Shown in pieces: positions 5,882-35,177 of a stretch of DNA of 50,508 nucleotides. This DNA comes from a virus. The position numbers were made by a program, and so were the translations under genes. Every line of letters starts with the position of its first letter. Position 1 is the first letter of the stretch. Below the pieces are notes generated by a model. The model searched no databases. It was not told the origin of the DNA and worked only from the letters and a program-made list of their open reading frames with translations. The DNA lies in the IMG/VR virus record IMGVR_UViG_3300013117_000343, positions 1 through 50,508 of that record; one strand, written 5' to 3'.

Positions 5882-5904
5882 GTAATTTCAATTATTGAAC
5901 TTAT
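5882..5904 (-). promoter_or_regulatory. Dispersed 23-bp palindrome, copy 1
   Basis: Read leftward, ATAAGTTCAA, 3 nt, TTGAAATTAC, directly followed by the AAGGAGG of the 5870 gene. The surrounding 129-bp gap (5871-5999) holds no convincing gene. Its position in the mRNA leader and its recurrence elsewhere suggest an operator or RNA-level control site. Confidence 0.7.
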
Positions 5905-5999
5905 CAGATAAGGTAGAGGAGGGCTGCCTTGGTAGGAGTGAAAAATGTAAAGAACCCCCTTAGCATTTAACCAGGAGTGGGCACCCCCCTCTATGTAGA

Positions 6000-6377
6000 C
6001 TACCTTACTATCTTCTTTATGTCGTTTGAGAAAACTCCCTCATACTCTTTAACACTAAGAGCTGCATCCAGCTCCAGCCCTTTTGTGTCTTCAGTGTCGA
6101 AGTCTCCCCAGGTTAGACCTAATCCCTCACAAATCTCCCTCAACCTGAATTGAGCATTACCTTCAGGTTTTAGGGTAGTGTTCTCGAATACATGCCCTGG
6201 TTTCAACTTGTCGTCAGTTGCTTTCACGTTAGGGTCTGCAAACTCGAACTCCCACTTTACATAAGGGTAGTTCTTACCTTCTGCTATTGAGCAATTTACT
6301 ACTCTCAACCTGTAACTACCAGCTTCGGCATAACCAAAGCCGCCAGTCTCAGCATTAGGATTTACCGTGACTTTCAT
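6000..6377 (-). CDS. DUF669-like single-stranded DNA-binding protein
   Basis: A 125-residue protein starting at ATG 6377 behind AAAGGAGG. The pattern AGSYRLRVVNCSI, YPYVKWEFEF, NTTLKPEGNAQFRLREICEGLGL resembles phage DUF669 proteins, OB-fold-like ssDNA-binding factors normally found beside Sak4-type recombinases, as here. It probably coats ssDNA during replication and recombination. Unlike bacterial SSB it shows no acidic C-terminal tip (it ends in KKIVR). The upstream small gene overlaps its start by 23 bases. Confidence 0.7.
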   Translation of the reverse strand: MKVTVNPNAETGGFGYAEAGSYRLRVVNCSIAEGKNYPYVKWEFEFADPNVKATDDKLKPGHVFENTTLKPEGNAQFRLREICEGLGLTWGDFDTEDTKGLELDAALSVKEYEGVFSNDIKKIVR

Positions 6378-6516
6378 CAGCTTTACCTCCTTTCTTTTGG
6401 ATTTTGTGTTCTTTAAGCCAAGCATCACGCTTAGCCTTTTTGTGCTGCTTTTGAAGAACCTCCATTGTCATTTCGATGTCAGTGAGACCTGGTGTGTATC
6501 TTTTACTCTTCTTCAT
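6355..6516 (-). CDS. Small basic protein, 53 aa
   Basis: Begins MKKSKRYTPG and is Lys rich (KKAKRDAW, KIQKKGGK). A purine-rich GAAGGGGAAAG lies before the ATG, and the frame overlaps both the preceding micro-gene and the following ssDNA-binding gene, consistent with translational coupling. Unknown function; a nucleic-acid accessory protein of the recombination module is a guess from charge and position. Confidence 0.5.
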   Translation of the reverse strand: MKKSKRYTPGLTDIEMTMEVLQKQHKKAKRDAWLKEHKIQKKGGKADESHGKS

Positions 6517-6580
6517 CACTTTCCCCTTCTACCTCTACATAAGATATTGTTGATATACTATAGGTATATGTGTCTTCCAT
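6503..6580 (-). CDS. Acidic micro-protein, 25 aa
   Basis: A 25-residue frame beginning MEDTYTYSIS and ending in an acidic tail (ESDEEE). Its ATG overlaps the stop of the RecA-like ATPase gene (TAATG) and is preceded by GGAGGGAGG, a very strong ribosome binding site. The next gene starts inside its 3' end. The acidic tail could dock onto a basic replication partner; this is speculative. Confidence 0.45.
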   Translation of the reverse strand: MEDTYTYSISTISYVEVEGESDEEE

Positions 6581-7341
6581 TACCTCCCTCCATAAAGTTT
6601 ACTGAAGTCAGATGGAACTATCATGGGTATGTCTCTTGATGTTCTACAAGACCTCATACTGTCACCAACAGTTAACATCTCATAAGTAACCTTATCTCCT
6701 CTTACAGTTTTACGGAGCCAATACACCTCCTCAAACCCAACCCCTATCTTATCCTTCATTTGACCATCAATTAAGGGAAGGTAAGAAATCCTCCCAGTCA
6801 ACTCATCTTTATCTGCTCTCTCATGACAGATGAAGATTACGTTACACTTAAGTCTAAGGAGTGTATTATTAACTGTTTCATAGTTGGTAAGGGCTACACC
6901 ATAGAGAGGGAGGGTCATAGTAGATGTTGAATTAGCCGCCATTAAGAGTCTTTTAAGATGCTCATTCATGGAGGTATAGCTGTCTAATACCACGGTTTTA
7001 ATCTTTATCTTCTTGCCCTCCCTTTCAATAGTGCAATCATTATCAACAAGAGTTTGTATCATCTCAGCCAATCTCATATAACCCTTAGGTTTAGCCATGG
7101 TTACACGAGACCCTGGCTTAGGGTCTAATCCCGCTAACCTAACAAGAGTTAGTTCTGAAAGAGGGTCATCAATAGCCCATTGGATAATATCCCCCTTCTC
7201 TAACTTCCCTGAGATATTGTGCATCTTGTGAAGCTTGTTATCCACGTCTAAAAATAGAACGGGACCAGGTGCAGTTGAAGCGGCTGTGGTTTTACCACTC
7301 CCTGGTGGTCCTATCAGTAGACAACTGAAGATTTTCTCCAT
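6580..7341 (-). CDS. RecA-like (Sak4-type, AAA_24) recombination ATPase
   Basis: A 253-residue P-loop ATPase with Walker A GPPGSGKTT (11-19), a Walker B-type strand KTVVLDSYTSM, and the core VIFICHERAD typical of phage Sak4/AAA_24 recombinases, which pair or anneal ssDNA. It lies in a module with a PD-(D/E)XK nuclease, an unknown 87-aa protein and a DUF669-like ssDNA-binding protein: exonuclease, recombinase and SSB together. The start overlaps the stop of the previous gene at 7341. Confidence 0.82.
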   Translation of the reverse strand: MEKIFSCLLIGPPGSGKTTAASTAPGPVLFLDVDNKLHKMHNISGKLEKGDIIQWAIDDPLSELTLVRLAGLDPKPGSRVTMAKPKGYMRLAEMIQTLVDNDCTIEREGKKIKIKTVVLDSYTSMNEHLKRLLMAANSTSTMTLPLYGVALTNYETVNNTLLRLKCNVIFICHERADKDELTGRISYLPLIDGQMKDKIGVGFEEVYWLRKTVRGDKVTYEMLTVGDSMRSCRTSRDIPMIVPSDFSKLYGGR

Positions 7342-7604
7342 TATTTACCCTCCAATTTGTCTTTAGTTAACCAAAGGTGTATTTTACCATCTATCCTTGC
7401 TCTTCTAACATAACCAACGCCTAGTTGTCCAGCAAACTTTCTTAATAAGTATACGTTCCCTTGCTTAATCTCATCCTCATCAAAAACTATAGACTTGGTT
7501 GAGTCCAACACTTTTAAGGCGTTTAATACAGTCTCGTAAGGGAACTTACAACTTCTAGTAATAGATGGTCTGTCAGCTGTCTTAAAGTTAATCATGTTTT
7601 TCAT
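7341..7604 (-). CDS. Hypothetical 87-aa protein of the recombination module
   Basis: Begins MKNMINFKTADRPS behind GAGGAGG. The middle looks helical and the end beta-rich (GYVRRARIDGKIHLWLTKD). It overlaps the nuclease gene upstream by 4 bases and the Sak4-type gene downstream by 1, so it is almost certainly co-translated with them. No family is recognised; it may be a small winged-helix DNA-binding partner. Confidence 0.6.
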   Translation of the reverse strand: MKNMINFKTADRPSITRSCKFPYETVLNALKVLDSTKSIVFDEDEIKQGNVYLLRKFAGQLGVGYVRRARIDGKIHLWLTKDKLEGK

Positions 7605-8695: not shown

Positions 8696-8696
8696 C

Positions 8697-9548
8697 TCAA
8701 TTCACCCCCTTCCCCTTAATCTCAACTGAACAGTGCCCCCACTCTTGAAACCTATTAAACTTCACCTTTACATCACATGGGTTGCACACCCCATATTCTT
8801 CACATCTTCTAAACCCTCTAATTAACTTAACCTTATCATTTAATATGTGACCCATTGGGTTAATATCATTGTAGAGGTCATGATGACATCTAAAAATAAA
8901 ACCAGAGGGGTTTATCAAGAGCTCAGAAGGCTTACACTTAACAGTTAGTTTTCTAAGTTTAGTGCAAGCATTTTGATATTTGTAAGTGTTCTTCTCCCAA
9001 CCAGTGCTTAAAAACCTTTTAGTTCTAAAGTCTATGCCCCTCTCCTTACACATCCTAATCATAGACCTGTTAGTGTTCATAAACATAATATTATCAAATC
9101 CCCAGATGCCCACCTTATACCCCATCTTTTGAAGGGTGTGAACCTTGCTAACCATCTCAGCTTGATTGGTTTTTTTGTGTAGGCTAAACCTAATACTGGC
9201 ATATTTAGCTCTTCTTTTAAATACGTAAGGGTCAACTCTACTTACGAACTCATCCAGGTTAAACATACCATTAGTTACTAGGTCTAACCCTATCCCCTTA
9301 CGATATAAACCATCTACTATGGTATAAAATTGTGGGTGGATAGTCGGCTCTCCTCCTTGGAGAGTAAGAGGTAGGTCTGCTCTGTTCTGTATGCGAGCCA
9401 AACCATCTATCCACCCCGTAGCTCCTAACTCCTCCGTCTTAACGAGCCTGTCGAACCTATTGATACAGTAGGTGCAAGCCATGTTACACCGAAAAGTTAA
9501 GAAAACTCCTACGTAGTTATAAGTTTTGGGTAGTGTGATTGGTCTCAT
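8697..9548 (-). CDS. Radical SAM enzyme with C-terminal cysteine cluster
   Basis: A 283-residue radical SAM protein. CNMACTYC (Cys21, 25, 28) is the CxxxCxxC loop that binds the [4Fe-4S] cluster and S-adenosylmethionine; LQGGEPTIHP is the GGEP motif and DLVTNG a later barrel strand. Further cysteines in the last 70 residues (RCHHDLY, CEEYGVCNPC, HCSVE) suggest an auxiliary SPASM/twitch-like cluster, as in enzymes modifying peptides, sugars or cofactors. The gene overlaps the E1-beta-like gene by 32 bases. Substrate unknown; the neighbourhood suggests a joint pathway with the thiamine-diphosphate pair. Confidence 0.9.
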   Translation of the reverse strand: MRPITLPKTYNYVGVFLTFRCNMACTYCINRFDRLVKTEELGATGWIDGLARIQNRADLPLTLQGGEPTIHPQFYTIVDGLYRKGIGLDLVTNGMFNLDEFVSRVDPYVFKRRAKYASIRFSLHKKTNQAEMVSKVHTLQKMGYKVGIWGFDNIMFMNTNRSMIRMCKERGIDFRTKRFLSTGWEKNTYKYQNACTKLRKLTVKCKPSELLINPSGFIFRCHHDLYNDINPMGHILNDKVKLIRGFRRCEEYGVCNPCDVKVKFNRFQEWGHCSVEIKGKGVN

Positions 9549-10056
9549 ATAAGTCCTTTTCTTCTATTACCAAAGTTGGTAATGGTGAGATAAACATACT
9601 GTTGTAGAGGCTTTGTATTCTCTCAGGTTTTACTAATCGGACGGTTGTGATGTGGGGCTCAAACACGTTGGTGAAGTCATGGTTGTGTTGAAGACCTACA
9701 TCAAATTTGCCATCCTGGGAACCAATTATCGCTCTGATTAGGATTGGAAGAGTGAATTGCCCACCACTCATCTTCGGCACTAGAGCCATGTGGTTTATAA
9801 TTGCATCGGCGGCTATTAGCATGAAGTCCATTCTTTGGAACACCACTATAGGTTTGTAGCCTTGCATCGCAAGACCTATTGCAGCCCCTGCAATTAAGTT
9901 TTCGCAGATGGGCATCTCTAAGCATTTTTTCGCATTTACTTTGGTCATGGTGCCATATATATCTCCTGCGTTTTTTAACCCTTCTCCGAGGAACACGGTC
10001 TTTGGTTGTTCTCCTAGCCATGTCATCACCTCCGTTAGTTCTTGTTTATAGGTCAT
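9517..10056 (-). CDS. Minimal E1-beta-like (PYR-domain) thiamine-diphosphate subunit
   Basis: A 179-residue protein matching the pyrimidine-binding domain of 2-oxoacid dehydrogenase E1-beta/transketolase proteins: FLGEGLKNAGDIYG, the Glu segment PICENLIAGAAIGLAMQG and SGGQFTLPILIRA. Ordinary E1-beta subunits are about 320 residues and add a C-terminal transketolase domain, which is missing; the protein ends soon after VRLVKP. The E1-alpha-like partner is two small genes upstream. Together they could form one active site for decarboxylation or C2 transfer. No E2 or E3 gene is present, so a classical dehydrogenase complex is unlikely. Ribosome binding site AAAGGAG. Confidence 0.85.
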   Translation of the reverse strand: MTYKQELTEVMTWLGEQPKTVFLGEGLKNAGDIYGTMTKVNAKKCLEMPICENLIAGAAIGLAMQGYKPIVVFQRMDFMLIAADAIINHMALVPKMSGGQFTLPILIRAIIGSQDGKFDVGLQHNHDFTNVFEPHITTVRLVKPERIQSLYNSMFISPLPTLVIEEKDLYETNHTTQNL

Positions 10057-10199
10057 ATTATCTCCTTTATTTTCTCTTTTTTATATTCATAGCCGCACAA
10101 AGGGCATTTTTCGTGTTGAATGCCAAACTCTGCATGGCAGTTACCACATGTTACTTCAACTTTTACAATCCCTAATCTAATTAGGTCTTTAAGTTTCAT
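10053..10199 (-). CDS. Zinc-ribbon protein, 48 aa
   Basis: Begins MKLKDLIRLG and contains CGNCHAEFG and CPLCGYEY, a four-cysteine zinc ribbon, with a Lys-rich tail. Its TGA overlaps the ATG of the E1-beta-like gene (ATGA), indicating coupled translation. No clear ribosome binding site of its own. It may be an adaptor of the neighbouring enzyme pair. Confidence 0.65.
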   Translation of the reverse strand: MKLKDLIRLGIVKVEVTCGNCHAEFGIQHEKCPLCGYEYKKEKIKEII

Positions 10200-10350
10200 T
10201 AGTTTGTTTTTGCCTTATGCTGTCAAGCACCTCCCATGTAGTGGGTTTATCAAGCCGCTTTAGAAATCGTATTTACCTTTCCAAAGGATAAAACCCTTGG
10301 TGCCATAGAAATAACAATTTCCATAAGAAACCATATTCCTTTACTTTCAT
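10189..10350 (-). pseudogene. Small gene split by one in-frame TAA
   Basis: From ATG 10350, behind AAAGGAGG, the frame encodes 25 residues beginning MKVKEYGFLW and ending FYPLER, meets TAA at 10273-10275, then stays open for 26 more codons (RFLKRLDKPTTWEVLDS and on) to TAA at 10189-10191. Both halves look protein-like and share one frame, so this is either a nonsense-broken gene or a 25-residue peptide. Other genes here end normally with TAA, so reassignment of that codon is unlikely. Confidence 0.4.
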
Positions 10351-10377
10351 AACTACCTCCTTTTTCTAACTACAATT

Positions 10378-10572
10378 TTAACACCCCATCCCTTCTACTG
10401 TTGCCTGTTTTATTATATCTTCTTGGGGGACACTTACATAGTGATGTTTACAAATCCAGACCTTCTTCCCATTGTGTTCTACCACCTGAAAATCTTTGGT
10501 AATGGGTTTCTTGCAGATAGGGCACTGACCCTTATCTACTCTACTAGATACAATGTTATTACATTGAGACAT
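10378..10572 (-). CDS. Small zinc-binding protein, 64 aa
   Basis: Contains GQCPICKKPI followed by WICKHHYV, a C-x2-C / C-x2-H zinc site. The ATG at 10572 is chosen because GGGGGTAGGTG precedes it; a GTG two codons earlier is possible. It overlaps the end of the E1-alpha-like gene and lies between the alpha and beta halves. Function unknown. Confidence 0.6.
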   Translation of the reverse strand: MSQCNNIVSSRVDKGQCPICKKPITKDFQVVEHNGKKVWICKHHYVSVPQEDIIKQATVEGMGC

Positions 10573-11197
10573 GTGCACCTACCCCCACGTGAGGCCACCT
10601 TCTCACATAGTTATACCTTATTATATTCCTCGCAACCATTGGTGTAAAGTTATGCCATCTCTCTTCTTTGGTGCTCTCCACCGCAAGGTCATTATCCTCT
10701 ATTATGAAGGTGAGAGGTAGACTGCGGGAGTTGCCAAACCTCACTGCCTCCATAAAATGCCCAGTGTCTTCTCCACCATCTCCCACGAAGCACCAGACAT
10801 GACCTTTAGACCTCTTCTTTTTTAATCCAAGGGCTAGACCTACAGCAATAGCACACCCTCCACCCACTATCGCTGAGGTTAGGAAGTTAATTGACTTATC
10901 GTAGATGTGCATGCTCCTTCCCTCTCCTTTGCAGATGCCACTCTTCCTACCTAAGATTTCATCATGGAGCTTTTGGGCATCTCCTCCTTTTAAGAGATAG
11001 TGGTAATGGTTTCTATGAGAACTAACTACCCAATCTTTAGGTTTAATTGAACTAAAGAGTGAGATTAGCTGCTCCTCATTTCCTCCTGATAAGTGGATGG
11101 GGCAGGAAATCTTACCTTGTTTAAATAAAGTCTTAATGTTCTCCTCAAACCCTATGAGCTCTTCCTTTGTCCATCTCTTATTAGGTATACTCTTCAT
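10559..11197 (-). CDS. Minimal E1-alpha-like (PP-domain) thiamine-diphosphate subunit
   Basis: A 212-residue protein aligned by motif with E1-alpha subunits of 2-oxoacid dehydrogenases: SSHRNHYHYLLKGGD, ILGRKSGICKGEGRSMH, a Gly-Ala helix GGGCAIAVGLALGL, and the metal/thiamine-diphosphate loop GDGGEDTGHFMEAVRF reaching the metal-ligand Asn in EDNDLAVES. Typical E1-alpha chains run 320-400 residues; this one stops shortly after the cofactor loop. With the E1-beta-like partner it forms a stripped-down TPP enzyme. The ATG overlaps the TGA of the upstream membrane-peptide gene. Capsule and lipopolysaccharide loci also carry E1-like pairs, a hint rather than proof of role. Confidence 0.87.
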   Translation of the reverse strand: MKSIPNKRWTKEELIGFEENIKTLFKQGKISCPIHLSGGNEEQLISLFSSIKPKDWVVSSHRNHYHYLLKGGDAQKLHDEILGRKSGICKGEGRSMHIYDKSINFLTSAIVGGGCAIAVGLALGLKKKRSKGHVWCFVGDGGEDTGHFMEAVRFGNSRSLPLTFIIEDNDLAVESTKEERWHNFTPMVARNIIRYNYVRRWPHVGVGAHVSM

Positions 11198-11409
11198 CTT
11201 AATATCTTTGATACCTCCATCATCGCCTCTATTTTACCGTTTATGAGCAATGGGTGATAAATACCCTGTTGACTTTTAATTACATCAAGGTATTTATTCA
11301 TGCTCTTTAATATCCTTATGCTCTCCCTTATCTTACCTATTTCAAACCAGACCTTCGCTGTTATTATAAGACATAAAATGTGGAATAAAGTAACTATCAA
11401 AGTCCCCAT
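11194..11409 (-). CDS. Single-pass membrane protein, 71 aa
   Basis: An N-terminal membrane helix (about residues 3-22, LIVTLFHILCLIITAKVW) is followed by a charged helical tail (EIGKIRESIRILKSMNKYLD). It overlaps the B12-type radical SAM gene by 13 bases and the E1-alpha-like gene by 4. It could tether the cassette to the membrane; inference only. Confidence 0.6.
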   Translation of the reverse strand: MGTLIVTLFHILCLIITAKVWFEIGKIRESIRILKSMNKYLDVIKSQQGIYHPLLINGKIEAMMEVSKILR

Positions 11410-12755
11410 ACTCTCCTCCTTGTCTCTAATCTAATCCGATTTAGCTCTTCCAGGGAAACTCCCATCATCCCTGCTATCTTTTTAGCCTTAAGAGTTGAGC
11501 TAAAGTTAATCCTATCCCACTCATAGGCTCTAATCATAGTTATCTCCTTAGAGGTGAACTCTGAGGTCTCTATTTGACCCTCTCTCCAGCTATCTCCCTC
11601 TTTTAGGCACTTCCCTTTGACGCACATGTCCCACAGGCGAGTATGTTTAAGAGGGGTGGCTGTAAAGACCTTAGTATAATCGGCGTCTATATACTCGGCT
11701 ACTTTAAGGGTCTTTCTAATCTCAGTCCAGGTCTCCCCTGGGAAACCTATGATGAAATTAGCCGCCACAAAGATACCATACTCTTTAGCATCTTGTATAA
11801 CACATTTGGCGTCTTCTAAGTCTATCCTTTTACCTATGATTTCCCTTTGAACTCTCCTGCTTCCACTCTCAATGGCTACATCGATATACTTACAGCCGCT
11901 CTTAGCCATAAGTCCAATCATCTCATCATCCATTTTGATTACTGAGGTAGCTATCATAGACCAAGGCATAGTGAGACCTCTCCTAATCATCTCTTGGAAA
12001 AGACTCTTAGCCCTCTTCTCATTATATAGTAGGTTATCGTCGTCAAAAATAAGAGACTTAATCTTATAATCCTTCTTAAGCCAGCTAATCTCTTCAATAA
12101 CATTTTCTACACTCCTTCCTCTCCAGCGTTTGCCCATTATCTCCTCTACTTGACAGAAACAACACCCATACGGACAGCCCCTAGACGTTATAATGCGTCC
12201 ATAAGGATACGAACACGGAGCGTCTACACTTTTCCGTATGGGTGGTTTATTTATATATGATTTTAAATCAATTAAGTCGTATGCGGGTAGGGGGAGTTCA
12301 TTTAACTTTTGGATTGGGAGGGCTTGGTGAATACCATGCCAACTATAGCCAAGGGTTATTTGGTTCATTAGGTATTCTCCCTCTCCCTTGACTATTATAT
12401 CTATCTCTGGAGCTTTTATTAAGATGTCAGCGTTCATACTGGGAGATACTCCTCCAACTACTACTTGTATTTTTTTAGATACAGCTTTAACTGCTTTGGC
12501 GGCTCTAAGAGTGGCTCCAAGTTGAGAGTCTATCATAGTAGTTATACCTACCATGTCTGGTTTCTCTTTCTCTACACGTTTTGCAAATACTGATGTTTCT
12601 AAGTCCTCTTTATAAGCATCTATTATATTTACCATAGTCCCATTCTTTCTAACTTTGGCGGCAAGGAGGCATAGATTGTAAGGTATGTAATCCCAGAGGA
12701 AATCCTTGTTTGTCTCACTCCATCTAAAGTTGGGGACTACAAGGGTTAGGTTCAC
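11397..12755 (-). CDS. Radical SAM enzyme with cobalamin-binding-like N-terminal domain
   Basis: A 452-residue protein of the B12-binding radical SAM class. Residues 1-140 form the Rossmann-like domain (MVGITTMIDSQLG, VVVGGVSPSMNADILI, IIVKGEGEYL); the classical DxHxxG histidine is not seen, so cobalamin binding is uncertain. Cys194, Cys198 and Cys201 (CPYGCCFC) form the cluster loop, followed by LIFDDDNLLYN and IDVAIESGS, usual for this class. Members methylate, cyclise or rearrange unactivated carbons in lipids, antibiotics and cofactors. GTG start. Context: between a 181-aa unknown and the E1-like genes. Confidence 0.9.
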   Translation of the reverse strand: MNLTLVVPNFRWSETNKDFLWDYIPYNLCLLAAKVRKNGTMVNIIDAYKEDLETSVFAKRVEKEKPDMVGITTMIDSQLGATLRAAKAVKAVSKKIQVVVGGVSPSMNADILIKAPEIDIIVKGEGEYLMNQITLGYSWHGIHQALPIQKLNELPLPAYDLIDLKSYINKPPIRKSVDAPCSYPYGRIITSRGCPYGCCFCQVEEIMGKRWRGRSVENVIEEISWLKKDYKIKSLIFDDDNLLYNEKRAKSLFQEMIRRGLTMPWSMIATSVIKMDDEMIGLMAKSGCKYIDVAIESGSRRVQREIIGKRIDLEDAKCVIQDAKEYGIFVAANFIIGFPGETWTEIRKTLKVAEYIDADYTKVFTATPLKHTRLWDMCVKGKCLKEGDSWREGQIETSEFTSKEITMIRAYEWDRINFSSTLKAKKIAGMMGVSLEELNRIRLETRRRVWGL

Positions 12756-14090: not shown

Positions 14091-14154
14091 AAATCCTCCC
14101 ATCATTTATCATCTTACACACTTCCATTAGGTCTTTGTCTACTTTCTCTCTCAT
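14077..14154 (-). CDS. Micro-protein, 25 aa
   Basis: Begins MREKVDKDLMEV, helical and charged. Its ATG overlaps the end of a copy of the dispersed palindrome and its 3' end overlaps the next start, the arrangement seen at 26751-26772. No ribosome binding site; the palindrome might act in initiation. Reality uncertain. Confidence 0.4.
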   Translation of the reverse strand: MREKVDKDLMEVCKMINDGRIYGEA

Positions 14155-14175
14155 AATTTCAATTTTTGAACTTAC
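14153..14175 (-). promoter_or_regulatory. Dispersed 23-bp palindrome, copy 2
   Basis: Read leftward, GTAAGTTCAA, 3 nt, TTGAAATTAT. It begins at the stop codon of the 31-aa membrane peptide gene and ends at the ATG of the 25-aa gene, so it fills the whole junction. Confidence 0.75.
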
Positions 14176-17765: not shown

Positions 17766-17991
17766 GGTTCTTCTCCTTAAGATAAATGTTTCCAAATTTA
17801 TCCATCATGACTTCGTCTTCGTCTATGCTGTAGCGAGGGAAGCCATACTCACATTGCCAGACGCCTTTACTTAACCTAACTAGAGGTCTCCCACAACTAC
17901 ATTTGGCGTTCCCATCAAAGATTGCGAACCACTGCCCTCCACTTAGCATCTCACTTTTATAATCCCCTTCAAACGGGACTCTCTCACTCAC
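17752..17991 (-). CDS. Small zinc-knuckle protein, 79 aa
   Basis: Contains AKCSCGRPLV and VWQCEYGFPRYS, a CxC plus single Cys arrangement that may be a degenerate zinc ribbon. GTG start just inside the end of the AAA+ ATPase gene. The acidic tail (SIDEDEVMMDK) may bind a partner, conceivably the ATPase. Confidence 0.55.
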   Translation of the reverse strand: MSERVPFEGDYKSEMLSGGQWFAIFDGNAKCSCGRPLVRLSKGVWQCEYGFPRYSIDEDEVMMDKFGNIYLKEKNHDPN

Positions 17992-19125: not shown

Positions 19126-19148
19126 ATAATTTCAATTTTTGAAAATAT
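19126..19148 (-). promoter_or_regulatory. Dispersed 23-bp palindrome, copy 3 (imperfect)
   Basis: Read leftward, ATATTTTCAA, 3 nt, TTGAAATTAT; the left arm is degenerate. It overlaps the last codons and stop of the 117-aa gene and precedes the AAA+ ATPase leader. It keeps the same orientation to transcription as the other copies. Confidence 0.5.
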
Positions 19149-22005: not shown

Positions 22006-22028
22006 GTAAGTTCAATAATTGAACTTAC
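22006..22028 (-). promoter_or_regulatory. Dispersed 23-bp palindrome, copy 4 (perfect arms)
   Basis: GTAAGTTCAA, 3 nt, TTGAACTTAC: both 10-bp arms are perfectly complementary. Placed between the 83-aa gene stop and the AAAGGAGG of the 48-aa gene. Confidence 0.8.
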
Positions 22029-22031: not shown

Positions 22032-22283
22032 CTAATTATTATTCAACTTAGCAAGCGTAGTATCTACAAAATTTAAGTGTCCCTTACTTATCAACATACA
22101 TATCACCCCACTCGCATATGATAACACATTCAGTGGGTTATCCCCTTTATCACTCGCAAGGGCAATCAACGCCTCCATAACCCCTTTCTTCGCCATCAAC
22201 TTCATAACCTTATTAGCAAGCTTCTTTTGGTCTTTCGTGAGACCACTCCTATTTCCCTCATCCCCAAACTTCAAAGGCTCCAT
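22032..22283 (-). CDS. Hypothetical 83-aa helical protein
   Basis: Begins MEPLKFGDEGNRSGLTKDQK behind GGAGGAG. All-helical appearance with a hydrophobic helix (LNVLSYASGVICMLI). Third gene from the leftward promoter, so expected to be made early. Function unknown. Confidence 0.6.
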   Translation of the reverse strand: MEPLKFGDEGNRSGLTKDQKKLANKVMKLMAKKGVMEALIALASDKGDNPLNVLSYASGVICMLISKGHLNFVDTTLAKLNNN

Positions 22284-22420: not shown

Positions 22421-22547
22421 CTTCTACCCCCTCTCTACCAAATACATCAATCATTACCCTATTTGTCCACTTCAACTTCCCATTCGGTTTAATCTTATCA
22501 ACAGGTGGTTTATTTTGATATGCTAAATATTTATCCAACTTATCCAT
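22413..22547 (-). CDS. First leftward gene, 44 aa
   Basis: Begins MDKLDKYLAYQNKPPVDKIK, 144 bases downstream of the leftward promoter -10 box. GGGGTGAG precedes the ATG. Being first in the early operon, it is a candidate host-takeover peptide; no motif supports a specific role. Confidence 0.55.
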   Translation of the reverse strand: MDKLDKYLAYQNKPPVDKIKPNGKLKWTNRVMIDVFGREGVEGA

Positions 22548-22690
22548 TTTATCTCACCCCTTCTCCTTTACTTATTTTTGTTACAATGTGTGTTTTGAAT
22601 ATTATGTTCGTAAGTTCAAACTTTTAAAAAGTAGTATTTTTAGTTTAGGTCTTGAAAAAGCAATTACCTATGGTTCAAGTATATATAAGA

Positions 22691-22719
22691 AGTATATCAC
22701 GAGGTAAGGGCTTTGTCAA
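22691..22719 (-). promoter_or_regulatory. Early leftward promoter
   Basis: On the minus strand TTGACA (22714-22719), a 17-nt spacer and TATACT (22691-22696), near-consensus for the housekeeping sigma factor. The spacer (AAGCCCTTACCTCGTGA) closely resembles that of the rightward promoter at 24264, so one activator or repressor may read both. Expected to drive the whole leftward block. Confidence 0.85.
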
Positions 22720-23012
22720 GTTATTTTTTTTGTTGTAACCTATTGGGATTATTAGGGTTGTGAGAAGTCAAAAAAAATAAATTTTGAGGGTATTTCAAAA
22801 ATTGAGAGGGCGACCTCAAAGGGTGAAATTGCGTTTTTGGGGTTTGGTGAGCCAGTAGAGGCAAAGTAATAGCGAGGGTATAGGGGAGTATAGGGTTGGA
22901 AAAGATGAGGGCTTATATTGGAGATTTGAGTAGAGGCGGGGTTGAGGGTGTAAGTTCAATAAAGAGATTTTAAATTACCTTAAAACACGGAGTTCATTGG
23001 AGTTATGTAAAT

Positions 23013-23102
23013 CCGTGTAACTCTGTGTAACTTTGAAATTACGCTAAGCTGTTGGGATTATTGGGGTTATAGAAAAAGAACCAAAGTTACACAGTTACAC
23101 AG
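23013..23102 (+). repeat. Origin repeat unit 1
   Basis: Starts with CCGTGTAACT followed by CTGTGTAACTTT (23013-23034), then a half-site TTGAAATTAC (23033-23042), ATTATTGGGGTT (23057-23068), AGAAAA, and the inverted boxes AAAGTTACACAGTTACACAG (23083-23102). The same order recurs in unit 2. Confidence 0.75.
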
Positions 23103-23197
23103 GGGGTTGCTGGGTGCTTTTAAATGTTTTTAAGAAGTATGTTTATATATATATTTTATATATATTATAAATATATTTATAAAGTAAAATAGGATAC

Positions 23198-23286
23198 CCG
23201 TGTAACTGTGTAACTTTCGCCAGATTTCTATAAGTCCTTCTAATTATTGGGGTTCGGAGAAAATGAGGGTTACACAGAGTTACACA
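23198..23286 (+). repeat. Origin repeat unit 2
   Basis: Direct copy of unit 1 about 185 bp on: CCGTGTAACTGTGTAACTTT (23198-23217), AATTATTGGGGTT (23242-23254), AGAAAA, and inverted boxes GTTACACAGAGTTACACA (23269-23286). Each unit holds two head-to-head pairs of GTGTAACT boxes, eight boxes in all. Confidence 0.75.
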
Positions 23287-23495
23287 AAACGCTGTAAGTC
23301 TAATAAACTCCGTGTTTTAAAGAGATTTAAAAAGTCCTGTAATTTCAATAAATCACTTATGATGTCAATACAATACTAACCTGTTAATACAATGTTAGTT
23401 TATGGGAGTAATTTTCAAAAATGGTGGGATAAAACTAATATATCGGCGTGTTATCTATGTGATGTTTTATAAAAATGTTAGAGTTAATGTTAGAG

Positions 23496-23846
23496 TTAGA
23501 GTGTTATACCTAACTCTGCGAGTTTATCTGCTGATAAACCTTGCAAAACTTTTATTGCTTGTTGATTTTTGCGTCGTGTTGCTTTCAAACGTTCTTTGAC
23601 TTCTGGTGAAAGTTCACGAGATACGATGTGTCCATTGTCAGTTTTTAACTTTAACCTTGCTGTATTACATTGATTGATTTTATGCTTATCATTGATGAGT
23701 TTCAAAACTTCTTTCTCTGATAAGTTATCCGTTGCGTCGGCAACGCTATCAAATAATGTAATCTCACAAGTTCCCGTAATTTCTGTTCCTGCGTCGTCAA
23801 AGTCATCAGGGACATTGTATTTTATACCTACTTCAAGTTTACGCAT
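23496..23846 (-). CDS. Hypothetical 116-aa protein with its own promoter and foreign codon use
   Basis: Starts at ATG 23846 (CTCGGAGGTCT upstream). N-terminal half beta-rich and acidic (GIKYNVPDDFDDAGTEITGT), C-terminal half helical and basic (SPEVKERLKATRRKNQQAIK) with an end LSADKLAELGITL. Arginine is coded mainly by CGT, CGA and CGC, while most phage genes here use AGA/AGG, so it was probably acquired recently. Alone between the origin and the late promoter, it is a candidate moron or regulator. No family recognised. Confidence 0.75.
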   Translation of the reverse strand: MRKLEVGIKYNVPDDFDDAGTEITGTCEITLFDSVADATDNLSEKEVLKLINDKHKINQCNTARLKLKTDNGHIVSRELSPEVKERLKATRRKNQQAIKVLQGLSADKLAELGITL

Positions 23847-23926
23847 AGACCTCCGAGCATAGCATAAACACGCCGACATATTTAGTTTTTAAAGAGCAAT
23901 ATGATTATACTAATGGTTGTATTATA

Positions 23927-23954
23927 AGTATAGCATATATAACTATAATGTCAA
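23927..23954 (-). promoter_or_regulatory. Promoter of the isolated 116-aa gene
   Basis: Minus strand TTGACA (23949-23954), 16-nt spacer, TATACT (23927-23932), with a further TATAAT just downstream. The transcript would start near 23920 and reach the ATG at 23846. Its spacer differs from those of the two main promoters, which suits independent, perhaps constitutive, expression. Confidence 0.75.
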
Positions 23955-24263
23955 GGGAAATCTACATAAATCGTATCAGGGCTAATGTTGTAAGTGATTG
24001 CCTCCATTAGAGTTAGAGAAACGCCCCGAGCCGTCGGCTCTGCGTGTATGTATAATATAGGTAATGCCCCTATATGTATGCTATGTAATCAAGGTATGTT
24101 ATGTTATTTAATATAACCTACCCACCACACCCCCCAGAGTGTTTAGTTTTATTAGTTTACCCCCAAATTTACGCTACCAAAATTTGAGGCTCAAAAGTTA
24201 TAAGTTCAATGATTTCAAAGGGTTAGAGCAAATAAAAAAATCCGTAATTTCAACACTTTTCCC

Positions 24264-24292
24264 TTGACAAAACCTACCTTGTGTGATATACT
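24264..24292 (+). promoter_or_regulatory. Rightward (structural operon) promoter
   Basis: TTGACA (24264-24269), 17-nt spacer AAACCTACCTTGTGTGA, TATACT (24287-24292). A palindrome half-site GTAATTTCAA (24244-24253) lies 10 nt before the -35 box, a natural regulator position. The stretch 24019-24243 upstream has no gene; it holds A+T-rich sequence and a degenerate half-site near 24201. Confidence 0.88.
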
Positions 24293-24359
24293 ATACAATG
24301 GAAATATAGTATGTTTGGGGTATAGATTTTAAAAGTTGAACAAAGCCGATTTGGATTTT

Positions 24360-24462
24360 TTGAAATTACACGCCTCGTCTTGACGAAGACTGGGGTGATA
24401 GTTACTAAGCTTAGCGACACATTACATTGACTTAAATGTTGATGCCTTTGTGTCGCTTTTTT
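24360..24462 (+). terminator. Structured leader with terminator-like hairpin before terminase
   Basis: In the 5' leader of the structural operon: half-site TTGAAATTAC (24360-24369), small hairpin GTCTT/AAGAC (24377-24390), then a 9-bp perfect stem AGCGACACA (24413-24421) with TGTGTCGCT (24449-24457) enclosing an inner ACATT/AATGT stem, and a T6 run (24457-24462). This has the form of an intrinsic terminator 20 nt before the first gene, so the operon probably needs attenuation control or antitermination. Confidence 0.7.
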
Positions 24463-24483
24463 GTTTAGTAGAGGGAGGTGGAA

Positions 24484-25017: not shown

Positions 25018-25127
25018 TGATAGATGACATAGATGCTATGCGTCTTGTTAATAGAGGTGAAAGTAATGGACTTAGTAAGGATGTCAGAAAAACAGAGGTT
25101 AGTTTTAAGGAAACAATGTCTTCGTAG
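25017..25127 (+). CDS. Possible 36-aa overlapping protein
   Basis: Begins MIDDIDAMRLVNRGESNG on a TAATG overlap with the small terminase and runs 62 bases into the large terminase in another frame. It may only serve to bring ribosomes to the terL start. Content is plausible but unsupported. Confidence 0.3.
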   Translation: MIDDIDAMRLVNRGESNGLSKDVRKTEVSFKETMSS

Positions 25128-26754
25128 TCTTTACGCATTTTGTGTTGGTGTGATGGGCTACGACGATATTACGGAAGACCTCCATGGAGAGTATTGTAGG
25201 TTTTTAGAGGGGGATAGTAGAAGGAAACAAGCTACTATGCCCCGTTCTTTTGTTAAGACTTGGATTGGGTCGATAGCTTACCCGATTTGGGCGACCTTGA
25301 TTAGACGAGCGGCTGATGAGTTCCCAGAAGGGACTGACCCAACTGATAAGTTTTGGAAATTGGGACCTGATATGAGGATACTTGTTGCAAGTTATGTAAT
25401 TAGTAATGCTGAGAAGATGATTTCCCTTATTAGGAAGACTTATGAGAGTAATCCTGTGATGCAGATGCTGTTTCCAGAAGTAATACCGAGGAATTTTAAT
25501 AAGATTAGGTGGAGTAATCAGAGTGCTTGTATAAATAGAGCTAATAATTATACTGAAAGTACTTTTGAGGCAGCTGGAGTAGGTGGTGCCTCTATCTCTC
25601 GGCATTATGATTTGGTAGTAGAGGATGACCTTGTATATGCCAAGAAAGATGACCTCACTGGGAAGGAGTTACATCCAAGTCAGGAAGATATAGATAAGGC
25701 TATTGGGTGGCATAAGCTCACTCACTCACTATTGGTTCCTGGTAGACATACTAGGATTTATAATATTGGGACTAGATGGGCTAAGAGAGACCTTATTAAG
25801 TATATCTGGGATAATGAGCCAAGTTATGAGAGGTTTATGAGGGCTGCTGTTAAGCTTGAGCAACTAAACGCTGGTTTAAATTGGGAGGAGTGTGACCCAG
25901 AGTGGCCTGAGTGTTATGACAAGAAACAGTTAAGAGGGATAAGAGATGCCCAAGGCACCTACATATTCTCCACGCAATACCTCCTCTTTCCACGCTCGCC
26001 TGAAGAGATGTTATTCAAAAAGCCATGGCTTCAGCTTTACACTAGTCCAGGAGAGGTTCCTGAGACCATTAGGAAGTTTACCACTGTAGACCTTGCTGAA
26101 TGGGGAAGCTCTAAACGCAAGAGGGGGGACTGTAATGCAGTTGTCCTTACTTGTGGTTGGGACCACCTTAATCACGTATGGTTAGTCCACTATGATACTG
26201 GTAGGTTTGACCCGAGTGAGGTAATTAAACTAATGGGGAAGCATTGGAACTTATTTCACCCTGAGAGTATCAGTGTGGAGAGTGTATATTATCAGAAGTC
26301 ACTTGCCCACTTTGCCCGCATTTACATGGAAGATGGTAAGGTGCCTTGGATGCGTATTCATAATATTAAACCTGAGGGGAATGAGAGTAAGGAACTTAGG
26401 ATTAGAGCTATTGAGCCAATTGCTTCAAACCTTGCTGTTCATTGTAAAGATAGTCATAAAGAGTTTATAGATGAGTTTTGTGATTATGTCCCTAATGACC
26501 ATACTTGTAAGAAGGATATATTGGATGCCCTTGCTTATCAAATTCAGGTGGCTAGACCTGGTGTCGCTAAAAGGGATGTTAGTGTGAGGAATAGGAATGA
26601 TTTCCTCCCTTTAGGGAATATTGATGACTTTTTAAAGGAGGCCTGGGGAAAGGGGAGAGGGAAAGGTATCTTTGGAGACCAACTTCCTAAAACTGACCCC
26701 TTTACTGAGCAAGAGGTTGAGGTTATACTGGAAGACCCGTTGGTTGGTTTATAA
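25066..26754 (+). CDS. terL: Terminase large subunit (packaging ATPase/nuclease)
   Basis: A 562-residue motor protein. ATPase: Walker A-like MPRSFVKTW, of the classical PRxxxKT terminase form, adenine/coupling segments, and Walker B HYDLVVEDD. Nuclease: FTTVDLAEWG with the first catalytic Asp, ISVESVYYQ with the second acidic residue, and KDILDALAYQ with the third. ATG 25066 is preferred because AGAGGTGA precedes it; an upstream in-frame start at 25033 lacks one. Follows terS. Its stop codon lies in a copy of the dispersed palindrome. Confidence 0.92.
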   Translation: MDLVRMSEKQRLVLRKQCLRSLYAFCVGVMGYDDITEDLHGEYCRFLEGDSRRKQATMPRSFVKTWIGSIAYPIWATLIRRAADEFPEGTDPTDKFWKLGPDMRILVASYVISNAEKMISLIRKTYESNPVMQMLFPEVIPRNFNKIRWSNQSACINRANNYTESTFEAAGVGGASISRHYDLVVEDDLVYAKKDDLTGKELHPSQEDIDKAIGWHKLTHSLLVPGRHTRIYNIGTRWAKRDLIKYIWDNEPSYERFMRAAVKLEQLNAGLNWEECDPEWPECYDKKQLRGIRDAQGTYIFSTQYLLFPRSPEEMLFKKPWLQLYTSPGEVPETIRKFTTVDLAEWGSSKRKRGDCNAVVLTCGWDHLNHVWLVHYDTGRFDPSEVIKLMGKHWNLFHPESISVESVYYQKSLAHFARIYMEDGKVPWMRIHNIKPEGNESKELRIRAIEPIASNLAVHCKDSHKEFIDEFCDYVPNDHTCKKDILDALAYQIQVARPGVAKRDVSVRNRNDFLPLGNIDDFLKEAWGKGRGKGIFGDQLPKTDPFTEQEVEVILEDPLVGL

Positions 26755-26773
26755 GTTCAAAAATTGAAATTAT
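26751..26773 (+). promoter_or_regulatory. Dispersed 23-bp palindrome, copy 5
   Basis: ATAAGTTCAA, 3 nt, TTGAAATTAT. Contains the terL stop codon (TAA 26752-26754) and the first bases of the next ATG (26772), so it spans the entire gene junction, as at 14153. Confidence 0.75.
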
Positions 26774-27173: not shown

Positions 27174-28887
27174 TGGACTTGAGGGTAAAAAACCTAAACG
27201 CTTAGACTATTGGAAGACTCAAATTAGGATGGGAGTAAGGTATCGCACCCAATATGGGAGGTCTAATGAGTGGAGGCGCTACAAGACCATGCTTAGAGGC
27301 TTCTGGGGAGAGAGTATAGTCCCAGTAAATATAATACACGCCGTGGCTCGCTCAATCATTCCCCAAGTCTACTTTCGAAACCCCCGAGTAGCTGTTCTTC
27401 CGATGAAGCCAGGATACACGATGCATGCCAGAGTTTTAGAGAGAGTAGATAACTACCTTTTAAGGGAACTTGGTATCAAAAAACAACTCAAATCCATGAT
27501 ACTTGACTGTTACACTTGTGGTAGAGGTCCAGGCATCTTCGGTTATGATACGGAATTTGGCTTCAACCCCTCCTTCTCATCAGAAGAGTTTGAAGATAGT
27601 TCCCTCACTACCTTTAATAAAAAAGGTGAAAGAATAGAGTATAATATAGACGTAAAACCTGGTATGCCCTGGTTCCTTCGATGTAATCCAGCAGACTTTA
27701 TAGTCCCCTGGGGAACCCACGAGTGGGGGGAGAACCAATGGTATGGATTTAGGAAGATGAGACCTTTAAAAGACATAAAAGAGGACCCTAAATATAAGAA
27801 TAAAGCTAAACTTAAAGCCCCCTACAAAACCAGACTAGGGGGAAGCCCAGAAGGGATACCTGGTGGTATTAACCAGACCCTTGAAGAAGATTGGCAGAGT
27901 GAATGGGTAGAGCTTTGGGAAATACATGACCTAAGAAGCGGAAGGTTGATGGTAATATCTCTTGACCACAATAAGTTTCTTAGAGATGATTATGATTATC
28001 TTCAAATTGAGGGATTAAATGCTAGAGTTCTTGGCTTCAACGAAGACCCAGACTACTTCTGGTGGGCTCCAGACGCTCGTATGATAGAAAAGCAGCAATT
28101 AGAGCTAAATGATGTAAGAACTATGGCTAAGATGCACCGAAGAGTAGCACTTCTCAAGATATTATATGATAAAGGCCTCCTTAAAAAGGATGAGTTAACT
28201 AAACTACTCGATGCTGACCCCAAAGCAGCCGTTGGAGTAGAGGTAGGCCCTCAAGGAGACATTAGAAAGGTAGTGAGCCTCCTCCAATCCCATGTCCCAC
28301 CCGATTTCAACATAGCCGCTCGAGAGATTAGAGAAGATGTAAGAGAAATTGTAGGCTTCTCCCGAAATCAAATGGGTTCCTTCGAGGCTCCCAGTGGTAG
28401 AAGGACAGCCCACGAGGCGGAAATTGTAAGAGCAGCCAGTATGATTAGAATAGATGAAAGAAGAGATGGTGTGGCTGACCTCCTATCCTCAATTCTTAGA
28501 GGTATGAACCAGATAATCTTTGACAATTGGACAGCAGAGCGTCTAATAGATATAGTAGGCAACGATGGAGCAAAATACTGGATACGCTTTACAGGTCGTG
28601 AAATTAAAGGTGAGTTTAACTATAAGATAAACCCAGAAGAGGCAATTCCAACAGACCAAAGAGTTCGTCAAGCCCAAGCTGAGAAGTTTATAGAGCTCTC
28701 GTTAAAGATACCAGGCCTCGATACCAAATATCTACTTGAAAGTTACGCTTCCCAATTTGATTGGATAGACCCAAAGCTCCTATTCCCAGGAGAAGGTCCT
28801 GGTAGAAGCCCAGAGAAAGCTATGATGTTCAACGACTTCATGAGAATGGGTGGGGGTAGGGGTAGCTTCCCAGGATTAGGAGGATAG
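27163..28887 (+). CDS. Portal protein
   Basis: A 574-residue protein in the canonical place after terminase. RYKTMLRGFWGESIVPVNII and VARSIIPQVYFRNPRVAVLP are typical of the portal wing; the central helical part, QMGSFEAPSGRRTAHEAEIV and the stem-like segment after FDNWTAERLIDIVG fit the dodecameric DNA gate of the capsid vertex. The C-terminus is Gly-rich. It holds the packaging motor and later the tail. Confidence 0.88.
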   Translation: MVIDGLEGKKPKRLDYWKTQIRMGVRYRTQYGRSNEWRRYKTMLRGFWGESIVPVNIIHAVARSIIPQVYFRNPRVAVLPMKPGYTMHARVLERVDNYLLRELGIKKQLKSMILDCYTCGRGPGIFGYDTEFGFNPSFSSEEFEDSSLTTFNKKGERIEYNIDVKPGMPWFLRCNPADFIVPWGTHEWGENQWYGFRKMRPLKDIKEDPKYKNKAKLKAPYKTRLGGSPEGIPGGINQTLEEDWQSEWVELWEIHDLRSGRLMVISLDHNKFLRDDYDYLQIEGLNARVLGFNEDPDYFWWAPDARMIEKQQLELNDVRTMAKMHRRVALLKILYDKGLLKKDELTKLLDADPKAAVGVEVGPQGDIRKVVSLLQSHVPPDFNIAAREIREDVREIVGFSRNQMGSFEAPSGRRTAHEAEIVRAASMIRIDERRDGVADLLSSILRGMNQIIFDNWTAERLIDIVGNDGAKYWIRFTGREIKGEFNYKINPEEAIPTDQRVRQAQAEKFIELSLKIPGLDTKYLLESYASQFDWIDPKLLFPGEGPGRSPEKAMMFNDFMRMGGGRGSFPGLGG

Positions 28888-32194: not shown

Positions 32195-33124
32195 ATGGCG
32201 AAGAAGAAAGTAAAAGAGGAGAAAATAGTTCCAAAGATACTGATAGGGGTTCCCATCCTAAGTTGGTCTCACGAGTTCGCTGAGAGCTTCCTTAGGTTTT
32301 GGACAGAGCTTATGACTTATAGGCATAAGGGAACTAAGTTTCATGTTGCGTATAAGTTTATGCACAGAATGCCCGTTCACATGGCTGAAGAGAGGCTCGT
32401 GGACCTAGCAATCGAAAGTGGTTGCACTCATCTTTTACTAATGGATGATGATGTTTACGACGTAACAGCAGATATGTTTCTTAAACTGTTGAGTGACGAT
32501 AAGGATATAGTTGGGGGTGTAATGCACGCTTCAGGCTTTCCTTATGCGATGTGTGCTTTTAGAAGATATGATACCAAGCAGAAGGTGGCTAATATGCCAA
32601 TTCTTAAAGGTCCAGCTCGTCTTTATGAGGTGCCTCCAGACCAAAGGAAGGGTCTTCAAAAGGTAGACCTTATGGCTTACTGTTTTACCCTATTTAAAGT
32701 TGATGTCTTCAAGAAGCTTAAAAAACCTTGGTTTAAATGTAATACCCAGGCACCCACCGACAGTTGGTTTAGTGATAGTGTGTTGGATGCAGGCCTCGAA
32801 TACTATGTTGACTTCAGCATTTGGGTCAATCATAGGGGAGTAACTATACAGAACGTAGCACTCTGGCGTCAAATGGGGAGTCTTAAAATTCAAAATGATG
32901 CAGCTAGGATGATAGTGCTATCCCCAGAAGAGATGAGAAGACATGAGGCTTACATGACACTTAGACTTGAGACCGCTGAGAAAGCGTTAAAGTCTGAGGC
33001 TAAGGAGAAACTAACTTTCTTTCAAAAGAAGAGGGGGAAGAACCCAATAGGAACTGTTGTTGTAAAGGATGGGAAGGATGAGAAGGGAACTTTAGGTAAA
33101 CGGGAAGTCAACAAACGACACTAA
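32195..33124 (+). CDS. GT-A-like glycosyltransferase in the structural operon
   Basis: A 309-residue protein. KILIGVPILSWSHEFAESFL opens a Rossmann-like fold; THLLLMDDDVYDVTADMF has the metal/nucleotide-sugar DxD motif (Asp84-86), followed by GGVMHASGFPYAMCAFRRYD, as in GT-A enzymes. The catalytic core ends near residue 240; the rest is a basic helical tail. It may glycosylate capsid or tail protein, the host envelope, or modified DNA. Its site between capsid and tail genes and its own leader structure favour expression with virion genes. Confidence 0.78.
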   Translation: MAKKKVKEEKIVPKILIGVPILSWSHEFAESFLRFWTELMTYRHKGTKFHVAYKFMHRMPVHMAEERLVDLAIESGCTHLLLMDDDVYDVTADMFLKLLSDDKDIVGGVMHASGFPYAMCAFRRYDTKQKVANMPILKGPARLYEVPPDQRKGLQKVDLMAYCFTLFKVDVFKKLKKPWFKCNTQAPTDSWFSDSVLDAGLEYYVDFSIWVNHRGVTIQNVALWRQMGSLKIQNDAARMIVLSPEEMRRHEAYMTLRLETAEKALKSEAKEKLTFFQKKRGKNPIGTVVVKDGKDEKGTLGKREVNKRH

Positions 33125-34060: not shown

Positions 34061-34063
34061 ATT

Positions 34064-34819
34064 ATGGGATTAGGAACTCTGACGAGGGATGAATTTGTAA
34101 CAGAAATCTGCGACATCTGTGGAAAGTCTGAGACGGCCAGTGCTATCTCTGGAGCCGTTCTTCAAACCAGGGTAAGAACTTACCTCAACTGGGCTCAGAA
34201 AAGGGTAGCTCGTTTCTATAACTTTCATGAGCTTAATACTCTCCTTGAAACCGCTGCTACAGTTGCGGATGTTAAGACCTACCCAATGATTACTGGGACT
34301 AACAATTTAGGATTAACTAATCCAAAGGATATATCATCTATTAGACTAATAGATAGTGAGAATTCGAGGAAGTTGACCCGCTGGAGCTATCGAAAGTTTG
34401 ACAAGTACTTTCCCTACCCCACCAACTACTCCACTGGGAGGCCTCAAATATACGCACGTTGGGGGAGTAATCTTGAGTTCTTTAGAATACCTAACGCTGC
34501 ATACACTCTCTACATTAGATACCCTCAATGGGCTACAGACTTTTCAACTGGAGACCAGACATCAGATTATGAGAACAAAGACCAACTTATAATGACTGCT
34601 GGGATACTGGAGACCTACTTAGCTCTGGAGGAGTATAAGGATGCAGAGGTATACTACGCTCGTTTTCTTGGGCAGTTGAGAGATGCAGCTAGGGCAGAGG
34701 GGGATACAGATTGGGAGCCAGAGGCAGAACCCTTTGGAACTCTTATGTATAGAAGTGGGGAGCCTTGGAAAGACCCATTTGGGACTGTTGATGACCCACT
34801 ATACGGCTATTCAGAATAG
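34064..34819 (+). CDS. Head-tail adaptor protein (putative)
   Basis: A 251-residue protein with helical N-terminus (VRTYLNWAQKRVARFYNFHE), a beta middle (GRPQIYARWGSNLEFFRIPN) and helical end (LETYLALEEYKDAEVYYARF). This layout is typical of phage head-tail adaptors or tubular tail protein A analogues that join portal and tail. Position after the head genes agrees. Confidence 0.68.
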   Translation: MGLGTLTRDEFVTEICDICGKSETASAISGAVLQTRVRTYLNWAQKRVARFYNFHELNTLLETAATVADVKTYPMITGTNNLGLTNPKDISSIRLIDSENSRKLTRWSYRKFDKYFPYPTNYSTGRPQIYARWGSNLEFFRIPNAAYTLYIRYPQWATDFSTGDQTSDYENKDQLIMTAGILETYLALEEYKDAEVYYARFLGQLRDAARAEGDTDWEPEAEPFGTLMYRSGEPWKDPFGTVDDPLYGYSE

Positions 34820-34833
34820 AAGGAGGTAATGTA

Positions 34834-35148
34834 ATGGCAAGAAGAAGAGCTAGTTTACACACGAACATAAGCACAGACACTACAATAGCAACTGCGCCTT
34901 CAGTTTACTATGGCTGTTTAGCTCAGTGCCTAACCACGGGGCCATCTCAGGTTTTCGTGTATGATGCTACTGCTACAGCTACTGGCACAGTTATTGGTGG
35001 AGCTTATGCCACTGGTAGTGTGGCTGGACAGTTGTCTATTAACATGGCACCGCCAGGTGGTGTAGTATGTGACTTAGGTATCCATGCTAATGTTACCTGC
35101 ACAACTGCGGTTGATAATATTACAATATTTTGGGGACCTATTCAGTAG
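34834..35148 (+). CDS. Small structural protein, 104 aa
   Basis: Begins MARRRASLHTNISTDTTIAT after AAGGAGG; Ala/Thr/Gly-rich with regular beta strands, much like the 127-aa and 110-aa proteins at 35189 and 42953. These may be related small virion proteins, for example fibre or capsid decoration. Confidence 0.6.
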   Translation: MARRRASLHTNISTDTTIATAPSVYYGCLAQCLTTGPSQVFVYDATATATGTVIGGAYATGSVAGQLSINMAPPGGVVCDLGIHANVTCTTAVDNITIFWGPIQ

Positions 35149-35154
35149 AAGATT

Positions 35155-35177
35155 GTAAGTTCAATATTTGAAATTAT
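35155..35177 (+). promoter_or_regulatory. Dispersed 23-bp palindrome, copy 6
   Basis: GTAAGTTCAA, 3 nt, TTGAAATTAT, followed immediately by AGGAGG and the ATG at 35189. The only copy found between tail-region genes. Confidence 0.78.

Follow-up and report, generated by a model that had tools for sequence, protein, structure and literature searches.

A dispersed 23-bp palindrome as a probable operator of transcription in a lineage of uncultured phages

The viral record IMGVR_UViG_3300013117_000343 of IMG/VR (50,508 bp, the whole of which is called here the window) carries several copies of a 23-bp palindrome in the junctions between its genes, which raises the question of what function such a dispersed element serves in a phage. 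An initial annotation of the window likened the copies to the dispersed stoperators of mycobacteriophage L5, while also considering an RNA hairpin, an operator, a partition site or a recombination site. Our results suggest that the palindrome is probably the site of a symmetric (dimeric), sequence-specific regulator of transcription controlling the whole phage genome, with copies flanking promoters acting on initiation and copies at gene junctions acting as roadblocks.

The palindrome is conserved at gene junctions

Allowing up to two mismatches with RTAANTTCAANNNTTGAANTTAY, we found seven full palindromes in the window; 100 dinucleotide shuffles gave 0.03 on average and never more than one, so that chance does not produce similar numbers. 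Six of them had been annotated initially, all at the same coordinates, and the seventh (45813-45835) had been missed. The spacer of 3 nt between the arms was confirmed as invariant and, because the inner sequence is mostly T-N-A, the dyad is effectively 11-1-11.

The sites are kept in relatives. Scanning 2.9 million viral contigs for the pattern, we retrieved 73 stretches, and many of the contigs had several copies each. Most of the stretches form one coherent phage lineage with a common large terminase subunit (TerL; 30–63% identity), portal, capsid and PolA fusion, among others. These contigs are metagenomic fragments from uncultured hosts, and their gene calls are heuristic. After collapsing related sequences at about 65% identity, as in all non-redundant counts given here, 112 copies yielded the symmetric consensus RTAANTTCAANNNTTGAANTTAY with its T-N-A centre. 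For comparison, a background of 975 kb of phage DNA, chosen only by a common portal family, yielded one copy, on the contig most closely related to a motif-bearing one. Another group of phages (G001, G019, G037 and L189), whose portal is DUF935-like, also has the same palindrome or a near variant at gene ends. A search of the literature gave no report of the motif in phages. One contig of the lineage with a palindrome at the end of terL (L157) is binned in a metagenome-assembled genome of the archaeal Thermoplasmata, where it is probably misbinned.

Placement is far from random. Taking as a junction a stop codon at −5 to 40 nt together with a ribosome-binding site (RBS) plus start within 60 nt, 50 of 94 sites were at junctions, compared with 1.3% of random positions; five of the 94 (5%) were in long open reading frames (ORFs), versus 61% by chance, and in 18 cases the stop codon is the palindrome's own TAA. 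Certain orthologous positions recur, after terL and after the homologues of the window genes 34064-34819 and 43294-44082, and the homologous gene order around sites is preserved. By inspection, four of the six sites annotated initially, and not five, clearly stand directly before an RBS or start (5882, 19126, 22006 and 35155); that at 26751 overlaps the terL stop, and no clear RBS follows that at 14153. At the intragenic site the dyad is kept and the encoded residues differ, being VISKVEVT in the window (45813) and ASSKFELT in its relative G024 (18974). In a small early gene (G005 34873, G039 3012, G044 3177; contig coordinates), the palindrome is translated in the only open frame into VSSxxEIT, which is conserved in relatives.

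The palindrome probably acts as double-stranded DNA

The copies had been described as always oriented with local transcription. Across relatives, the G/A asymmetry at positions 5 and 19 on which an orientation would depend is loose, with a sense GA:TC ratio of 21:9 (p = 0.043) and 35 sites symmetric at these positions; the site at 22006 is fully symmetric, and only a weak bias is left of the claim. An RNA hairpin at gene junctions, serving as a processing, translation or termination signal, would agree with sites lying just before RBSs and with perfect dyads that are able to fold. Nevertheless, positions 5 and 19 form Watson-Crick pairs in 46 of the 112 copies, where 44.8 are expected (Fisher p = 0.83), changes at positions 4 and 20 are not compensated, a search of Rfam gave no match, and the copies upstream of promoters lie outside the transcripts of those promoters. 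We thus consider a hairpin highly improbable and, since the arms do not covary as an RNA stem would, the palindrome is better seen as a double-stranded DNA operator. Positions 1 and 23 are correlated (p = 4e-5), perhaps due to lineage. A tRNA scan gave no match.

Copies flank predicted promoters, those upstream in helical phase

We gathered from the lineage 48 non-redundant, non-coding promoters of the form TTGACR-N16-18-TATNNT, and found 34 copies of the palindrome (score of at least 15/18) within about 130 bp of them, versus 0.12 expected after shuffling. None of the copies overlaps the core promoter. Those upstream end 12, 19–24, 28–32, 44 or 52–53 nt before the −35 element, with a best period of 10.6 bp (p = 0.0008), and a second cluster is centred 72–79 bp past the first base of the −35 element, that is, at about +38 to +44 from the start. 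Upstream and downstream copies occur together, 95–120 bp apart, at several promoters. Those in G008 (8130), G009 (708), G016 (12621), G035 (594), G029 (1091), G004 (1119) and G039 (6277) have centres 95–116 bp apart, the distance being, for example, 114, 116 and 108 bp in G008, G016 and G009, respectively.

This arrangement recalls OE and OI, the GalR operators of the Escherichia coli gal operon, in that two dyad operators flank a promoter, with centres here at about −66 to −79 and +38 to +44. OE and OI are located at −60.5 and +53.5, act in a manner dependent on helical phase, and are 113 bp apart, with repression at distances of 103, 113, 123 and 133 bp (PMC4693257). Unlike in gal, the phages have many more sites along the genome and their pair distances lack significant phasing; looping between promoter-flanking sites is a hypothesis here, and contact activation is its main rival.

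In the window, the two divergent arms meet near 22–24.5 kb, where the GC skew turns. Exact half-sites (RTAAKTTCAA) number 19, versus 0.96 expected; 12 are within full sites and the seven lone ones are all confined to 22610-24369. The half-site cluster described initially (22610, 22950, 23033, 23339, 24244 and 24360) was thus borne out, with 24200 added. This switch region also contains iteron-like repeats (23013-23286; GTTACACAG/CTGTGTAAC, inverted copies that are perfect over 17 nt). They surround an AT-rich segment (23142-23183) and are, by their sequence, a likely replication origin.

Site sequences shift together within a genome

Our first scan was biased to the motif, and TerL relatives were therefore also fetched by protein. 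Many of them have at the terL stop a palindrome of different sequence with the same 10-3-10 architecture, and the copies within one genome agree with each other. For instance, TCRTATTCATNNNATGAATAYGA (TTCAT..ATGAA type) is present five times in G439 and not at all in nine others, and YCATTTTCAANNNTTGAAATTRR has five to seven copies in G440; L316 has a TTATTTCAA..TTGAATTAA type, and L321/X124 a GTTTAA..TTAAAC type. Variants of TTTAA..TTAAA and TTATTTCAA type thus also take up the terL-stop position. Many of the more distant TerL relatives have no palindrome at the terL stop. That all copies of a genome have shifted together is the trace expected from a co-evolving binder, and would fit either a phage-encoded protein or a change of host.

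The site also occurs in mobile cassettes of Omnitrophota

Eight of 42 exact palindrome matches in a genome collection belong to Omnitrophota, and 18 of 384 genomes of this phylum carry one site each, with none for a reversed control. Most of these sites immediately precede the promoters of mobile cassettes for toxins or defence, which include nucleotidyltransferase (MNT) toxin-antitoxin operons, Fic, a DUF4143 ATPase, AbiEi and a HipA N-terminus. The palindrome is there 13 nt before the −35 element, and a second, 27-bp palindrome, B (GTTGACATCT-N7-AGATGTCAAC), overlaps the −35 of the cassette promoters. When B was searched for independently (23 of 368 genomes), the phage-type palindrome preceded it by exactly 1 nt in most loci; in two of these, the phage-type palindrome has symmetric TTTAG..CTAAA changes. 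Cassettes with this composite promoter are at L171, L174-L177, L179-L185 and L280-L301, on Omnitrophota chromosomes; judging from their sequence they appear to be inserted after the first codons of miaB-like genes. At L142, an apparent remnant of a large serine recombinase adjoins the cassette.

These sites are indirect host evidence for the phage lineage, and as such a lead for a phage family without isolate. CRISPR gave no host evidence, spacers from Omnitrophota yielding five weak matches, none within an array, and a TerL search of Omnitrophota genomes retrieved only distant terminases. It is conceivable, though rather speculative, that the palindrome is a regulatory currency common to these phages, unrelated phages and mobile defence elements of Omnitrophota, such that infection, through an incoming regulator or its titration by phage DNA, would switch host defence on or off; the common site offers a rare and testable link between phage regulation and host defence. 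We rejected two other host functions: a Xer/dif-like site, because the palindrome is in only 18 of 384 genomes and placed in mobile cassettes, and a LexA-like box, because it does not seem to be at core genes.

A probable operator system and its alternatives

Of the options raised initially, an operator or stoperator-like DNA site fits best: the copies stand at junctions and in both arms, recur in phase at promoters, and change their specificity together within a genome. In the switch region, weaker copies and half-sites would flank the main promoters on one helix face and regulate initiation, most simply by looping or by contact with RNA polymerase, in the manner of GalR at OE and OI. Junction copies, which are strong and recur every 3–10 kb, would be roadblocks to elongation, as stoperators are, so that both arms may be kept shut or paced. 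We infer a dimeric protein that represses rather than activates, and an effect of this protein on RNA polymerase.

Several points weigh against this proposal. No binding protein was identified, and in 18 contigs, among them the window and G041, which each have terminal repeats, there was neither a tyrosine (PF00589) nor a serine (PF00239) recombinase, nor a helix-turn-helix (HTH) protein above the HTH_3 cut-off, although L5 gp71 itself was not searched for; a lysogeny repressor is, therefore, not evident in them. The promoters analysed are consensus predictions, those of the window bear half-sites and no full weak sites, and significant phasing is seen for the upstream gaps only, and not, in a hand estimate, for operator-to-operator distances. 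A class I activator could also act from the upstream positions.

Such an activator, bound upstream in phase with RNA polymerase, would turn on late transcription, with the junction copies as decoys whose titration sets the timing by copy number. With upstream gaps of 12, 22 and 32 nt, the site centres fall near −59, −69 and −79 at a phase of 10.6 bp, and the site of the Omnitrophota cassettes, 13 nt before the −35, would be suitable as well; we nonetheless regard this as unlikely, because the promoters are already close to the sigma-70 consensus, sites at about +40 are unfit for pure activation, and decoys need not be at gene junctions. Sites for genome organisation, partition or recombination (parS-, Xer- or module-boundary-like) would give a meaning to spacing, which is more even than random in the window, G041, G024 and G001 (p 0.006–0.02), as well as to the junctions. 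They leave the promoter-phased copies unexplained, the gene order around sites is kept, and no gene found supports the partition or recombination once suggested, with no recombinase in the 18 contigs and no ParA or centromere-binding gene recognised among the scanned proteins, all of which makes them very doubtful.

A more serious alternative concerns the source of the protein, and is compatible with an operator function: the binder may be encoded by the host or another mobile element, with phages carrying its sites and site shifts following the host. We consider this possible, although less probable than not. The presence of the site in unrelated phages (G001 and G019/G037/L189, with their different portal) and in Omnitrophota cassettes speaks for it, and that in unrelated phages favours a binder that is host-encoded, mobile-element-encoded or horizontally exchanged. 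Likewise, we found no small gene encoding a recognisable regulator domain that all near-complete genomes have in common. On the other hand, the strict site is found in only 18 of the 384 Omnitrophota genomes, once in each, and mostly in mobile cassettes instead of a core regulon. Within the phages, two mutually non-homologous proteins, SRP-A and SRP-B, are each behind their own strong promoter in the switch region of one of two clades. SRP-A was rejected as the binder, having a low-confidence model (predicted local distance difference test, pLDDT, 69) and no recognisable fold. SRP-B, a 76-amino acid (aa) early protein conserved in the other clade (L033:5521-5748(-), L059:373-600(+), L010:13909-14136(-) and others), has a good beta-beta-alpha model (pLDDT 82), with no PDB or viral fold match and no Pfam family. 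With the same operator in use in both clades, neither of the two is a persuasive candidate for the binder. The switch region of G005 also encodes a small Cro-like HTH protein (32666-32782, contig coordinates; 71-aa open frame), a weak match below the HTH_3 cut-off.

Comparison with known systems

In cluster A mycobacteriophages (L5, TipsytheTRex), a monomer binds stoperators that are asymmetric 13-mers in strict orientation, numbering more than 20 per genome (PMC9283540). The likeness proposed in the initial annotation holds for the dispersal over both arms and for the location in short intergenic spaces and at promoters; it fails for the symmetric 23-bp dyad and the seven copies per genome, and the orientation shows a weak bias. 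As neither an integrase nor a recognisable repressor was found in the 18 contigs, an L5-like immunity system is not established. SPBRE of Bacillus phage SPbeta is a dispersed intergenic repeat whose binder was unknown for 24 years and which touches toxin-antitoxin genes; its 15-bp motif lies in promoter regions and is the target of MrpR, a repressor with a tyrosine-recombinase fold (PMC10516654). Our element is likewise dispersed, intergenic and linked to toxin-antitoxin genes, and differs in its 23-bp dyad and in the absence of PF00589 matches from the 18 contigs. The Omnitrophota cassettes, with their phage-type site, have a possible parallel in P2 and P4, where the site of the phage regulator Ogr, at about −55, is also found on late promoters of another element; sequence and binder are unrelated as far as known.

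To our knowledge, only a few phages have whole-genome control through dispersed operators. A dispersed symmetric operator system is of a known general kind, and the combination of features is new. The lineage is uncultured and apparently non-integrating and, with symmetric operators, phased promoter copies and set-wise switches of specificity, makes the co-evolution of site and binder directly testable.

Layout of the window and other features

The window is bounded by a 119-bp direct terminal repeat and is, therefore, probably a complete phage genome, terminally redundant or circular. Nucleotide and protein look-ups in a collection of annotated phage records found nothing resembling it. The left arm encodes a uracil-glycosylase/PolA fusion, DUF3987, a ParB_N-DNA methylase, an AAA_24 ATPase and a PD-(D/E)XK nuclease, and the right arm TerS, TerL, portal and capsid. 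The features of the window are listed in Table 1.

Table 1. Palindromes, lone half-sites, predicted promoters and selected genes of the window
Feature	Position	Strand	Remarks
Full palindrome GTAATTTCAATTATTGAACTTAT	5882..5904	.	Before AAGGAGG/ATG of leftward gene 5490-5870
Full palindrome ATAATTTCAATTTTTGAACTTAC	14153..14175	.	Junction, leftward arm
Full palindrome ATAATTTCAATTTTTGAAAATAT, one mismatch	19126..19148	.	End of gene 19132-19485(-), before gene 17984-19081(-)
Full palindrome GTAAGTTCAATAATTGAACTTAC, perfect and fully symmetric	22006..22028	.	Between 22032-22283(-) and 21846-21992(-)
Full palindrome	26751..26773	.	Supplies the terL stop codon through its TAA (26752-26754); orthologous position kept across the lineage
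Full palindrome	35155..35177	.	Between 34834-35148(+) and 35189-35572(+), directly before RBS
Full palindrome (seventh)	45813..45835	.	Inside 1369-aa ORF 44673-48782(+)
Lone half-site GTAAGTTCAA	22610..22619	+	Downstream of predicted leftward promoter 22719-22691
Lone half-site	22950..22959	+	Near iteron-like repeats
Lone half-site	23033..23042	-	Faces 22950
Lone half-site	23339..23348	+	Other side of iteron-like cluster
Lone half-site	24200..24209	+	Upstream of late promoter; absent from initial annotation
Lone half-site	24244..24253	+	Ends 10 nt before −35 of late promoter
Lone half-site	24360..24369	-	Downstream of late promoter, faces 24244
Predicted late promoter, TTGACA-N17-TATACT	24264..24292	+	Upstream of terS/terL; consensus match only
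Predicted leftward (replication arm) promoter, TTGACA-N17-TATACT	22691..22719	-	Consensus match only
Predicted promoter of switch-region gene	23927..23954	-	Consensus match only
Switch-region protein SRP-A, 116 aa	23496..23846	-	Kept in TerL clade of the window
Terminase large subunit (terL)	25033..26754	+	phrog_38

A metabolic-looking segment of the replication arm (8697-12755(-)) encodes two radical SAM proteins, one of them B12-binding, and both halves of a transketolase/E1-dehydrogenase-like enzyme. In relatives, a short motif like NLVCRITVTS ends several structural proteins or is repeated within them (G041 22499-22909 and 24157-24477; G005 27777-28166 and 10062-10577; contig coordinates).

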